Assembly (NCBI GenBank): GCA_017847725.1
Contig: JAGAXW010000006.1
Span: 26,842 to 90,841 of the forward strand
DNA: 64,000 bases
Reading direction: 5' to 3'
Origin: Prevotella sp.
GTDB lineage: Bacteria > Bacteroidota > Bacteroidia > Bacteroidales > Bacteroidaceae
Position 1 is the stretch's first letter; each line of letters starts with the position of its first letter. Both the position numbers and the translations under genes were made by a program. Shown piece after piece: positions 2,657-13,275 of this stretch. A model generated the notes under the pieces. It saw only the letters and a list, made by a program, of their open reading frames with translations, did not search any database and was not told the DNA's origin.

Positions 2657-2727
2657 TGTCCAATGGTGTAATGGTAGCACAACAGGTTTTGGTTCTGTTT
2701 GTGGTGGTTCGAATCCGCCTTGGACAA
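2657..2727 (+). tRNA. tRNA-Gln (anticodon TTG)
   Basis: Cloverleaf by eye: acceptor stem TGTCCAA (2657-2663) with TTGGACA (2720-2726) and discriminator A at 2727; anticodon stem ACAGG/TCTGT with loop TTTTGGT, anticodon TTG; T arm GGTGGTTCGAATCCGCC. No CCA is encoded. The 3' half is the target of the integrated element, and because the left att copy rebuilds it the gene remains intact. Confidence 0.95.
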
Positions 2728-2728
2728 C
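2712..2728 (+). other. attL: left copy of 17-bp direct repeat
   Basis: AATCCGCCTTGGACAAC covers the T-arm 3' side, acceptor stem and discriminator of tRNA-Gln, plus one base. An identical copy lies at 13259-13275. A duplicated tRNA 3' end bracketing an integrase gene is the classical signature of tRNA-targeted site-specific integration. Confidence 0.92.
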
Positions 2729-10503: not shown

Positions 10504-11052
10504 TTATTGTACGCTGAATGTCGAGAGGTTTGCAAAGTCGGTATTCACCGCGTATTCGCCTGGCTCTATATTGTCAAAGAAGATAATGTAGCAGCCCTCG
10601 CCATATTTCTTCGCCACGAATGGCACGTTGTTATAGTTCGTAGTCGCTGTGACACCAGAGAGGAATCCAGCTTCAGCCACCAGGAACGTACGAGCCTTTT
10701 TCTCAACCTCCAGTTTCCATACGCCAAATACCTCCTTAGGGTCTTTCTCGTTATTACCCGTCTTGATAACCAAAGTCAGGGGTCCGGCTTTGACTTTTAC
10801 TGGAGCTTCAGATCCTTTAATAGTCAGCTTCACCTTTGACTTATCCAACATTCCAGCACCAGGAATAGGCAGCATACCCCACTTGGAGGACTTTGCCTTC
10901 ATCTTCGCTGTTTCCTTCTGCAGCAGTGTTGTCGTACTGTCTGCATTAAGGATTACCACTTGCCCGATGTACTCAGGCTCAATACTCTTTGACTGTGCGA
11001 AGCTGCTCATTGCCACCATCGCAATTACCAATGTAATAATACTCTTTTTCAT
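10504..11052 (-). CDS. Secreted protein of unknown function (cargo operon, second gene)
   Basis: 182 residues with a clear signal peptide (MKKSIITLVIAMVAMSSFAQ, cleavage after SFA). The mature part looks all-beta: VVILNADSTTTLLQKE, KVKLTIKGSEAPVKVKAGPLTLVIKTG and YIIFFDNIEPGEYAVNTDF, suggesting a beta-sandwich. No known family is recognised. It starts 6 bp after the zinc-ribbon gene and is almost certainly cotranscribed with it. The product is probably periplasmic or surface-located. Confidence 0.68.
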   Translation of the reverse strand: MKKSIITLVIAMVAMSSFAQSKSIEPEYIGQVVILNADSTTTLLQKETAKMKAKSSKWGMLPIPGAGMLDKSKVKLTIKGSEAPVKVKAGPLTLVIKTGNNEKDPKEVFGVWKLEVEKKARTFLVAEAGFLSGVTATTNYNNVPFVAKKYGEGCYIIFFDNIEPGEYAVNTDFANLSTFSVQ

Positions 11053-11058
11053 AATTTG

Positions 11059-11580
11059 TTAATCTATTATTTGTTTTACTCTATTCTTCCATCTGTCAAT
11101 GGCTTTCTCATCGCCAACCTTTATGAATGTGACAGTCATCTCTTTTTCATGTTCTTCTCGTAAAGATTTTCGGATAGCCCAAAATGCAAGGAGAGCTATC
11201 ACGCAAAGTAGGATATATGCAGCGGCTTGAGGGAACCGCCAGTTGAGAAAACCAGAGTGATCTGTAAAAATACGGAATCCGATTTCGACAGCAAGTGCTA
11301 TCAACAATAAGAGTCCCCAAGACTCCTTATAAGTCTTTTCTTCTTTTTTGATGGCTGCAAAGAAGAATGGGTCTCTATTCCCACAATGAGGGCAAACATC
11401 TGCATCAATGCTGATAGGTTGATTACAATGGCGACAATAGAGCTTATTTTCTTCCTTGAGGTGCAACTCGTTCCCCGTATCAGGAACGTCCTCTTTTAGC
11501 CACTCACCACAGTGCTTACATTTCTTGGCAACAGCCAAAATTTCTTCTCCACAATAAGGACAAATCTTAGTCTCTTCCAT
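11059..11580 (-). CDS. Membrane protein with two zinc ribbons (cargo operon, first gene)
   Basis: About 173 residues. Two rubredoxin-like zinc ribbons are visible: CPYCGEEI with CKHCGEWL (residues 7-27) and CRHCNQPI with CPHCGNRD (about 48-69). Two hydrophobic segments follow (GLLLLIALAVEIGFRIF and YILLCVIALLAFWAI), then a basic helical tail. The ATG at 11580 is preferred over 11595 because it starts directly before the first ribbon. The region upstream is a structured RNA with its own promoter, so the gene may be expressed from a structured leader. No specific function is recognised. Confidence 0.7.
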   Translation of the reverse strand: MEETKICPYCGEEILAVAKKCKHCGEWLKEDVPDTGNELHLKEENKLYCRHCNQPISIDADVCPHCGNRDPFFFAAIKKEEKTYKESWGLLLLIALAVEIGFRIFTDHSGFLNWRFPQAAAYILLCVIALLAFWAIRKSLREEHEKEMTVTFIKVGDEKAIDRWKNRVKQIID

Positions 11581-11581
11581 T

Positions 11582-11791
11582 TGGCGAATTATCAAGTGTC
11601 CCTGACAGCCGGACAGGACTATTTGTTATTGGTTAAAGAAGTGGGCCGCCTCCGTGTCGACTTGAAGGCTTCGCCAGAGGCCCGTATCCAACCACAGAGG
11701 GCAGCCCACTATTAGTGAGTTGCGTTCTCTGTGCCTGTCGAATACTATTTGATCTGGCGAATCTACAAGTCGTAGGCACTTCTTATATGTC
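11582..11791 (-). ncRNA. Structured RNA or leader upstream of the zinc-ribbon gene
   Basis: Transcribed leftward from the promoter at 11828-11796. A 10-bp stem pairs 11641-11650 with 11700-11709 (GTGGGCTGCC with GGCGGCCCAC, minus strand). A second long pairing joins CGACTTG and TTCGCCAGA (11772-11753, minus) to their complements at 11678-11658, giving 7 and 9 bp around an internal loop. A stem GTGCCT/AGGCAC encloses the upstream copy. No terminator is seen before the zinc-ribbon gene, so it could be a structured 5' leader rather than a free RNA. Confidence 0.6.
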
Positions 11792-11795
11792 CCTG

Positions 11796-11828
11796 CAAAG
11801 GTACGCATTTTATTTTTATTTTGTTCAA
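11796..11828 (-). promoter_or_regulatory. Promoter of the structured leader and cargo operon
   Basis: Minus-strand TTG at 11828-11826, a 22-bp spacer and a perfect -7 box TACCTTTG at 11803-11796. It lies immediately downstream of the terminator of the preceding RNA. Confidence 0.75.
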
Positions 11829-11833
11829 TTCTG

Positions 11834-12570
11834 CAAAAAAAAAGGCAGATTGTCCTCTTAGATTGATAGTTTTCTGGCGAAATTCTCAAGTCGAAGGACT
11901 CTCTGCCTGTATGAAAGAGCCGCCTTCTGTTACACCACTCGGCACCAATCGCCGGGGCATCAGCAAGGCAGCTCGCGACAGGCTGGACAAAGTGAGCGCG
12001 TCATAGAGACCCGTTCCCGCAACTCCTGTCAGGTGGCAGGCTGGTCAAAACAGGACCACCGAAACAGTCCCCCGCATTTCCTGCCAATTGGTGCTACACT
12101 ACTGTCTGGCTTGTCTTCAGTGACAACACTGGGATGTACAGTTGGTTATCACCCGGCAGTGTGCAACTTCAGGACTATTGCATCCGTCCTGTATGGGTGC
12201 CTGGCACAGTGTCGGCTGGACTTTACCACAAAGGGGGACGCACCTGTACCTTCTTATGCCCAAGGCTTATTCGTGCCAGGCGAAATCTGGCACTTAGCAA
12301 AAGGATGGCTTACGCCGACACGCCTAAAGGCGCAGATGCTACAGAACCAGAAGATGGGGAACCGCTACGCTCATGGGCCGGTCATACCGAGGCCGCCGTA
12401 ACCGCCTCCCGCTTCTCCCATGGCTCAAGTGCCGCTTTCCCCAATATCGTTCAGTCTTTCAAAGAGCGAAATTAATGCCACCCCGGTCGAGGCGTAACGG
12501 AACCTCGGTGGCCGGAATGGCAGTTCTTTTTTTTTATTCTCTTCTCAGTGAGCCGTTACGCATCACTGGG
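11834..12570 (-). ncRNA. Large structured non-coding RNA, about 740 nt
   Basis: No plausible coding frame on either strand; dense long-range pairing on the minus strand. Examples in plus coordinates: 12546-12551 with 12563-12568; 12476-12480 with 12518-12522 enclosing 12488-12492 with 12503-12507; 12356-12361 with 12437-12442 enclosing 12372-12377 with 12417-12422; 12273-12279 with 12287-12293. Two hairpin loops, 12492-12500 and 12553-12561, are perfectly complementary over 9 nt, suggesting a kissing interaction. The 3' end is an intrinsic terminator: TCTGCCT/AGGCAGA (11902-11908, 11843-11849) followed by nine U. The size and style recall ornate RNAs such as GOLLD or ROOL, but I cannot assign a family. 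No own promoter is evident, so it may be read through from 12785-12815. Confidence 0.65.
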
Positions 12571-12579
12571 TATATACGC

Positions 12580-12782
12580 AAAAAAGACCACAGAAATCCC
12601 GTAGGATCTCTGTGGCCTTTCCGTCCTGTTCTTCAGGAGTTGGTTGGGTTTTACTCTTATTGACGGATTCTCACCGTGTAAGCAAGCCAGTTACCACGCT
12701 CATACCCAAGCACCAACAGCAGGTAGGGGCCTCCCATTACGCAGCTATCGCCACCTTTTACCCTTTTTCTACCTGTTTGCTC
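12580..12782 (-). ncRNA. Structured small RNA, about 200 nt, with own promoter and terminator
   Basis: It begins just after a TACCTTTG box and ends at a canonical terminator: stem CCACAGAAATCC/GGATCTCTGTGG (12588-12615) around TACG on the minus strand, then six U (12585-12580). Helices on the minus strand include CAGGTAG/CTACCTG, GTTGG with CCAAC and TGGGT with ACCCA, ACGG/CCGT and TCCTG/CAGGA. No coding frame fits. I compared it with 6S RNA, tmRNA, RNase P RNA and the cobalamin riboswitch without a convincing match. Confidence 0.7.
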
Positions 12783-12784
12783 TG

Positions 12785-12815
12785 CAAAGGTAAGAAGAAA
12801 TTCTGTATTTCGCAA
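12785..12815 (-). promoter_or_regulatory. Promoter of the structured RNA block
   Basis: Minus-strand TTG at 12815-12813, a 20-bp spacer and TACCTTTG at 12792-12785: a full consensus Bacteroidetes promoter pointing leftward, back-to-back with the hicB promoter. Confidence 0.82.
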
Positions 12816-12840
12816 CTATTTACGCAACTTTTAGAGAAAA

Positions 12841-12874
12841 TTTTAGGTATTACGTCTAATAATGGCTACCTTTG
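12841..12874 (+). promoter_or_regulatory. Promoter of the hicB-like gene
   Basis: TTTTAG at 12841-12846, a 20-bp spacer and a perfect TACCTTTG at 12867-12874. The GTG start of the HicB-like gene lies 50 bp further on. Confidence 0.65.
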
Positions 12875-12924
12875 CAGTGATGAACAAGCAAGGTGTTTAT
12901 AATAATTAATAAGGTATAAGGACT

Positions 12925-13098
12925 GTGGAATATCTGAAGTATAAAGGCTATACTGGTAGCGTAGAGTACAGTGAAGAAGACAAGTGTTTCTTCGGCAAGG
13001 TGCAGGGCATGACGAAAGATGGCATTACTTACGAAGGTGACACTGTCGAGGAACTGACCAGAGACTTTGAAGGAGCAGTAGATGACTATCTGCAGTAA
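12925..13098 (+). CDS. Short HicB-like antitoxin domain protein
   Basis: 57 residues from a GTG start with AAGG upstream. The product begins MEYLKYKGYTGSVEYSEEDK, then FFGKVQGM, DGITYEGDTVEELTRDFEGAVDDYL. This is the N-terminal HicB fold that is the antitoxin core of HicAB systems. Full-length HicB proteins continue with an Arc/CopG-type DNA-binding domain of about 50 residues; here translation stops directly after DDYLQ. No hicA is visible on either side, so it is a solo antitoxin or a truncated remnant close to attR. Confidence 0.75.
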   Translation: MEYLKYKGYTGSVEYSEEDKCFFGKVQGMTKDGITYEGDTVEELTRDFEGAVDDYLQ

Positions 13099-13258: not shown

Positions 13259-13275
13259 AATCCGCCTTGGACAAC
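13259..13275 (+). other. attR: right copy of 17-bp direct repeat
   Basis: AATCCGCCTTGGACAAC, identical to 2712-2728. It is an orphan tRNA-Gln 3' end with no tRNA body upstream, marking the right boundary of the element. Confidence 0.92.

Follow-up and report, generated by a model that had tools for sequence, protein, structure and literature searches.

A mosaic of structured RNA modules on a Prevotella mobile element that may form a control region for cargo operons

In a 64,000-nt stretch of Prevotella sp. DNA (contig JAGAXW010000006.1; hereafter the window), a mobile element carries a block of three structured RNA units on its minus strand: a promoter-proximal unit (unit A), a string of folded modules (the array, or RNA 2) and a leader preceding a zinc-ribbon gene. 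We propose that this block is an RNA control region of cargo operons, in which the array RNA would regulate the operon of the zinc-ribbon and secreted-protein genes. This reading is drawn from sequence comparison and computed folding, and we place its probability at somewhat under one half (roughly 0.45). It draws on promoters conserved among relatives, covarying structures, modules that recur in altered order and always in one direction, and copies of a leader strand that have changed together in a diverged locus.

Genomic setting and relatives

The element is 10.6 kb long, lies in a tRNA-Gln gene and is bounded by 17-nt perfect direct repeats (2712-2728 and 13259-13275), with the RNA block about 0.5 kb inside its right end (attR; Table 1). 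According to Pfam, its genes encode a tyrosine integrase (Arm-DNA-bind_5, Phage_int_SAM_5 and Phage_integrase), a DUF5906 protein, a Toprim/CHC2 primase and a Mob_Pre/relaxase protein, while the minus-strand genes encode the zinc-ribbon protein and two others without a Pfam match. The repeats and the integrase and relaxase genes agree with the original prediction, made from the letters of the DNA, that the block is borne by a mobile element. The proposed link of the block to the zinc-ribbon and secreted-protein genes is likewise supported; homologues of the latter (10504..11052; 28% identical) adjoin unit A in L063 and L066, and a 48% identical gene lies 3' of the leader in L296, a contig from a viral collection.

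Table 1. Features of the RNA block and its surroundings (positions in the window)
Feature	Position	Strand	Basis or remark
tRNA-Gln	2657-2728		
attL, last 17 nt of tRNA-Gln, left end of element	2712..2728	+	perfect 17-nt direct repeat
Secreted-protein gene	10504..11052	-	signal peptide judged by eye
Zinc-ribbon protein	11059..11580	-	Pfam PF13240, PF12773
Start-codon copy of leader 5' strand, overlapping the zinc-ribbon gene start	11579..11599	-	repeat D1; duplex -18.2 kcal/mol
Leader RNA (TCGCCA family)	11637..11790	-	model R2, 152.5 bits
Leader 3' strand, common partner of all copies	11657..11678	-	
Leader 5' strand	11754..11773	-	
-7 box TACCTTTGC of leader promoter	11795..11803	-	sequence
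T, array-RNA terminator hairpin with U tract	11834..11908	-	inverted repeat I5; sequence
Candidate guide copy in T loop, complementary to leader 3' strand	11873..11894	-	repeat I1; duplex -30.3 kcal/mol
Module M5	11914..11973	-	
Alpha motif copy 3, stem GACAGG/CCTGTC	11977..12030	-	
Alpha motif copy 2, stem GGCAGG/CCTGCC	12035..12085	-	
Module M3 with variable arm	12082..12194	-	covariation; model R3
Module M2, 46 nt	12217..12262	-	6 copies including window
Module M1b	12292..12352	-	homologues in L059, L077
Beta frame (TGGGGAA..TTCCCCA) enclosing alpha motif copy 1 (12422-12372)	12355..12443	-	
H, two hairpins with covarying loop-loop pairing GTAACGG/CCGTTAC	12475..12568	-	alignment A10
Unit A terminator hairpin and U tract	12580..12620	-	inverted repeat I4; partly in terminator scan; helix 10 of alignment A3
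Unit A core RNA	12624..12779	-	covariation on A3; model R1
-7 box TACCTTTGC of unit-A promoter, TTG -33 box upstream	12784..12792	-	sequence
attR, 17-nt copy of tRNA-Gln end, right end of element	13259..13275	+	

A BLAST comparison with Prevotella genomes, which had been suggested as a check, recovered homologues of the block in 22 of 398 genus genomes (the window's own included) at E up to 0.01; for five of these the best E is no better than 0.002-0.01, and they may have matched by chance. A strict pattern for module E matched 2 of 150 genus genomes and a strict alpha pattern 2 of 140, all four among the 22 found by BLAST. One module pattern matched eight records of the species collection, titled Prevotella, Prevotellaceae or Bacteroidales; going by title, one comes from yak rumen and one from goat abomasum, and four bear RUG names, which we take to denote rumen uncultured genomes. 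Among viral contigs, the module and unit-A patterns gave no match and the E-module pattern matched a single contig (L296); the block DNA had no match at E 1e-5 in the PLSDB plasmids or the INPHARED phages.

Several further features were observed in the related loci. A DUF3584 gene, whose product is presumably SMC-like, is 99.7% identical between L063 and L066, both of which carry unit A and array modules, and one relative element encodes an MmeI-type restriction enzyme. A short lipoprotein family, two scanned members of which have no Pfam match, is present in seven of 20 loci (two being the references themselves); the array loci that have it are L059, L061, L063, L068, L072, L073, L078 and L296. 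Iteron-like repeats around TTGACG-AATATCAA were noted by eye near the arrays of L068 (8875-8795), L069 (12230-12300) and L296 (~2640), and a SAM-I/IV riboswitch match lies on the minus strand of L069 (5722-5837).

Coding potential and known RNA families

The block had been described as free of plausible genes, and this description holds: relative to its counterpart in L059 the array carries indels of 1, 7, 2 and 2 nt and lacks a codon-position bias, its helices covary (see below), and no convincing gene was seen between H and T. Overlapping plus-strand ORFs of 96-122 aa are present in the block, and in the 406-nt L059 stretch one antisense frame runs open from end to end (134 codons), as might be expected of protein-coding or decayed coding sequence; set against the indels, the lack of codon bias and the covarying helices, a coding role is unlikely, and in our estimate exceedingly so.

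GOLLD, ROOL, HEARO and OLE are all families within Rfam. Covariance-model searches of Rfam gave no match to the block at the gathering score and, with E up to 10, three chance-level matches only (11400-12950). At the gathering score, no family matched the block RNAs of eight related loci, and 20 loci with leaders of the wide family described below yielded tRNA and tmRNA matches only, with no riboswitch or leader family. These searches agree with the original failure to match the block to a known family, and they count against membership in the four families named above, none of which matched in the window or the eight related loci. Among the titles and abstract openings listed in literature searches, none describes the block, and a sequence-based literature search gave, among the matches listed, mostly papers that concern resistance-gene PCR by their titles.

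Promoters, terminators and folding

Two promoters had been predicted on the minus strand, and both -7 boxes of sequence TACCTTTGC are present (12792-12784 and 11803-11795); TANNTTTGC occurs 29 times in the window against 6.0 expected. The two predicted terminators were also found (12620-12583, with a U tract, and 11908-11834), their arms being the inverted repeats I4 and I5. A simple terminator scan returned four candidates against 1.6 expected, two of the four on the plus strand; it caught part of the unit-A terminator and missed T (11908-11834) because the loop of T exceeds the limit of the scan. Relative to shuffled sequences, unit A (z -3.8, 0 of 200 as good), the 747-nt stretch (z -4.1, 0 of 20) and the leader (z -3.4, 0 of 200) all fold better, in line with the long helices that had been noted.

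The division of the block into three units therefore survives in its units, strand, promoters and terminators, and is revised in two respects. First, the supposed 740-nt RNA is a string of modules with no single fixed fold; no -7 box of the TACCTTTGC type was found for it, so it would be a read-through product of the unit-A terminator. Second, units 1 and 3, judged from related loci, look like 5' leaders of genes rather than free-standing large RNAs.

Unit A and the hairpins H

With its terminator, unit A spans 12779-12580 on the minus strand. Its covariance model (R1) matches 11 of 23 sources, and in all 11 copies so found the motif TAnnTTTG, whose background rate is 0.02 per 60 nt, begins 13-18 nt before the core; we take these -7 boxes to be of the Bacteroidetes promoter type. 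Alignment A3 comprises eight of the 11 loci, leaving aside L064 and L078 (partial in the BLAST map) and L086, as well as two weaker unit-A-like stretches (L059 and a second one in L069). In this alignment, 93.6% of cells are paired on the consensus structure, and 20 pairs show two-sided change against a shuffled mean of 11.5, with 0 of 500 shuffles reaching 20. Structures slid along the alignment have at most 5 two-sided cells compared to 41 in register; the number of further pair types does not exceed that of shuffles (108 of 500). Among the matches shown when 13 first-look candidates were scored per genome, the unit-A model found the window alone in 251 genomes of the family, and unit A thus looks narrow in distribution.

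The hairpins H, which follow unit A, show six pairs with two-sided change among seven sequences (alignment A10), a number reached by 1 of 500 shuffles; 97.4% of cells are paired, against 36-43% in slid versions, and further pair types are again not above shuffles (203 of 500). The loop-loop pairing reads GTAACGG/CCGTTAC in the window, GTAGCGG/CCGCTAC in L060 and GTCGCGG/CCGCGAC in L059 and L063. What comes next varies among loci: a gene for a secreted protein or lipoprotein starts within ~25 nt 3' of H in L060, L063 and L068; a truncated H and then a gene are found in L066; a gene directly follows the unit-A terminator in L069, where H is absent; and other sequence lies between unit A or H and any gene in L059 and L061. 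In L069, a divergent unit with H also precedes an integrase gene. Judged by its sequence context (a promoter in 11 of 11 copies, a terminator and then a gene), unit A is most likely an attenuator-type leader.

A mosaic array of exchangeable modules

Profile searches with pieces of the array show that the same pieces recur in other elements in altered order and number. The alpha motif, for example, consists of a stem, GGA..GCGGG, an inner hairpin, UGACCRG and the closing stem strand; the three copies in the window differ in their stems (CATGGG/CCCATG, GGCAGG/CCTGCC and GACAGG/CCTGTC), and GGGAGG/CCTCCC and TTGTGG/CCACAA are found elsewhere. Eight instances have stems with one mismatch (CTTGGG/CCCATG or TTTGGG/CCCATG), and a shuffle test of the alpha stems (6 of 5000) includes out-of-register duplicates and is not relied on. 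The beta frame, which can enclose an alpha motif, encloses another hairpin elsewhere. Module M3, whose covariance model (R3) matches 12 of 23 sources, combines a constant part with a variable arm; 9 of its 27 pairs show two-sided change (0 of 500 shuffles), and 8 of 10 arm pairs have changed on both sides, with further pair types (28 of 500 shuffles) not above shuffles at the strict level. Two-sided changes are seen above shuffles in unit A, H and M3. A run of at least six U lies 3' of module M5 in 6 of 11 copies (L061, L068 twice, L072, L079 and L296) and three U only in the window; M5 may be a structured terminator.

We compared 14 arrays, delimited by eye, and found 517 same-strand matches between them and none on opposite strands. 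Matches to other arrays cover 50-97% of each array (n=14), and 97 of 458 ordered match pairs are out of order. To judge from these comparisons, the array is a mosaic of recurrent modules that have been nested, duplicated and reordered among Prevotella-type elements, and not one fixed fold. Since modules are shuffled while their orientation is kept, they probably function as RNA rather than as free DNA palindromes. The position of the block ~0.5 kb from attR, the mobility genes of the element and the recombination mosaic itself would also suit a function in DNA, with the hairpins serving as single-stranded DNA or recombination sites in transfer or integration and the modules as recombination units. 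The single orientation, however, matches that of the conserved promoters and genes, and in the minus-strand reading of unit A and M3 G.U pairs far exceed A.C pairs (84 against 9, a count favoured by folding that permits G.U); we therefore regard a DNA-level function as quite improbable.

The length and strong folding of the array also bring to mind a structural RNA like GOLLD or ROOL, which would fold into a scaffold or cage for the element and have only a secondary regulatory link. Relatives often lie near mobility genes: in 11 of 20 loci an ORF resembles a reference relaxase, Mob protein or integrase, and in the other nine the stretch covered contains none. A fixed particle is nevertheless hard to square with a module order that varies and a length that ranges from 0.4 to 2.5 kb among loci (~2.5 kb in L065), and Rfam gave no match; this explanation seems to us improbable, if a little less so than a role as DNA.

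The leader RNA and its wide family

Relatives of the leader that precedes the zinc-ribbon gene occur in other genera. Its model (R2) matches at least 43 of 251 genomes of the family (12 candidates scored per genome), and a strict pattern, from which the leader of the window itself departs, matches 78 of the 251 in 19 of 30 genera, with 0 matches for the reversed pattern; the wide leader family is thus present in about a third of the sampled genomes. A loose pattern searched across the phylum matched 24 of 247 genomes compared to 6 for the reversed control, most being taken for chance; in viral contigs (IMG/VR; L142-L261) it gave at least 120 matches, of which many may be chance.

In the leader core, a variable outer stem (P1) encloses, in this order, AAATCGCCAA, a domain that varies and GTTTGGCGAT within a small stem (P3). 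It was analysed in 50 instances, that is, the window and 49 from L088-L117 and L262-L291, a subset of the strict matches that excludes L287, which matched by chance within an ORF, and L091, the copy belonging to the window itself. The longest P1 helix averages 8.8 with the proper partner and 5.3 when partners are mismatched. At the inner P3 pair, TA occurs in 32, CG in 17 and TG in 1, and 40 of the 50 have a T tract no more than 70 nt downstream. The conserved leader strand can pair with the P3 loop, giving a pseudoknot or alternative folds, and the window and L296 (the latter lacking P3, by eye) keep the pairing of the leader strands through two-sided changes. In 48 of 51 wide-family instances, an ORF of at least 50 aa begins on the same strand no more than 350 nt away, and these downstream genes are varied, many having signal peptides by eye. 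The T tracts and same-strand ORFs give the wide leader the sequence layout of an attenuator.

Copies of the leader strand and the terminator loop

In leaders of the window's type, the 5' strand recurs at the start codon. This start-codon copy was found by pattern in 8 of 51 wide-family instances, and also in the window and L296; in nine loci, it pairs with its own 3' strand at a mean of -19.6 kcal/mol, compared to -15.3 for cross-pairings, L096 being a poor case (-8.4). Such a copy suggests a switch.

The loop of T carries a further copy of the 5' strand, whose duplex with the leader 3' strand (-30.3 kcal/mol) is the best among stretches tested from -1500 to +900. L296 repeats the order of unit A end, array, T, promoter, leader and secreted-protein gene, and in it the T loop, 5' strand, 3' strand and start-codon copy all differ jointly from those of the window: T and the 3' strand compare as CGACTTGA/TCAAGTCG against CAACCTGA/TCAGGTTG, and within this comparison as TTCGCC/GGCGAA against GTCGCC/GGCGAC. 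The T loop of L296 still pairs with its own leader (-21.7 kcal/mol, 0 of 2000 shuffles as good). Given this joint change, RNA 2 may pair with the leader through the T loop. The complementarity is kept in two diverged loci, the window and L296, and its specificity is one-directional: the T loop of L296 pairs poorly with the 3' strand of the window (-12.8), while the reverse combination (-22.1) is as strong as L296's own. In a scan of L296, T ranks fourth and the best partner is a stretch inside the gene (-29.1). Among array-linked leaders, the T-loop copy is known in the window, its near copy L062 and L296, with another form in L096, where the upstream copy lies within a hairpin that precedes a terminator-like hairpin. 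An ungapped similarity test gave no upstream copy in nine other leaders and also missed the window's own, and in L089, L097 and L098 the best partner by duplex energy lies 1.3-1.4 kb upstream.

Computed ensembles of the two loci disagree. Access to the start codon of the window was unmoved by blocking the 3' or 5' strand (0.40, 0.41 and 0.40), whereas the start region of L296 was 0.54 open, rising to 0.72 with the 3' strand occupied and falling to 0.34 with the 5' strand occupied; only L296 folds as a switch model predicts. The missing switch in the window could be read to mean that only leaders are at work, with unit A and the TCGCCA leader as cis attenuators, the array as recombination debris of broken leaders and the T-loop match as the leftover of a duplicated leader. 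Both leaders do precede genes in relatives, the modules are shuffled and duplicated, and the T loop resembles the leader 5' strand. Debris of this kind is harder to reconcile with array modules that keep covarying stems and are never inverted (0 of 517), or with the joint change of T loop and leader 3' strand in L296, and we consider this account unlikely, though the most serious of the alternatives.

Proposed mechanism

If the block is a control region with a regulatory array RNA, unit A would be the promoter-proximal leader, and its terminator would yield an RNA of ~200 nt. Read-through past unit A would run into H and the module array and end at T, producing a mosaic non-coding RNA built from exchangeable folded modules, whose T loop would repeat the 5' strand found in the leader of the next transcript. 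Three segments would then compete for the leader 3' strand, namely its own 5' strand, the T loop in trans and the start-codon copy; if either of the first two held the 3' strand, the start codon would be free, and otherwise it could be closed. The array RNA would most likely regulate the zinc-ribbon/secreted-protein operon and, by guess, activate it: since the modelled ensemble shifts in L296 and does not in the window, the sign of control is a guess. Possible roles of the modules are the binding of proteins or small molecules, or control over how stable the guide-carrying RNA is.

Comparison with known systems

To our knowledge, what large structured RNAs do on mobile elements has yet to be settled. 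The candidate base-pairing ties the array RNA to a defined gene leader and makes its function directly testable, and the mosaic suggests that RNA domains may be exchanged much like protein domains. The leader family, found in about a third of sampled family genomes without an Rfam match and before varied, often apparently secreted, gene products, may for these reasons be a common regulator in these bacteria. The original prediction had raised the possibility of a new large-RNA class linked to a cargo operon. No Rfam family matches and the cargo link is supported; unit 2 is a mosaic, and the leader belongs to a far wider family. That the modular array represents a new kind of RNA—a combinatorial kit of exchangeable, nestable modules kept in one direction, with a guide loop that mimics a strand of the next leader and switches translation in trans—is a tentative suggestion that we consider clearly less likely than not.

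GOLLD and ROOL RNAs are borne by phages and other elements. The block resembles them in being a large, strongly structured non-coding RNA, as they appear in an excerpt of one account (PMC12286853), and differs in its lack of an Rfam match, its reshuffled modules, its variable length and its position in operons or before genes. Unit A and the TCGCCA leader share with attenuator and riboswitch 5' leaders the succession of promoter, structured RNA, terminator and gene, but have no known ligand or Rfam family and, in the window's type, carry a direct repeat of the 5' strand over the start codon. In the excerpted text of Fremin and Bhatt (2021; PMC8040213), palindromic Bacteroidetes candidates of 80-132 bp are described, some of them predicted to be terminators. 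Those left unnamed may include the wide leader family, whereas arrays and start-codon copies are absent from that excerpt. Finally, the block recalls antisense and trans-acting sRNAs, in that ~18 bases in the loop of one RNA are complementary to the leader of a second RNA; it differs in that the candidate guide is placed within the terminator loop of a large RNA mosaic and imitates a strand of the leader itself.
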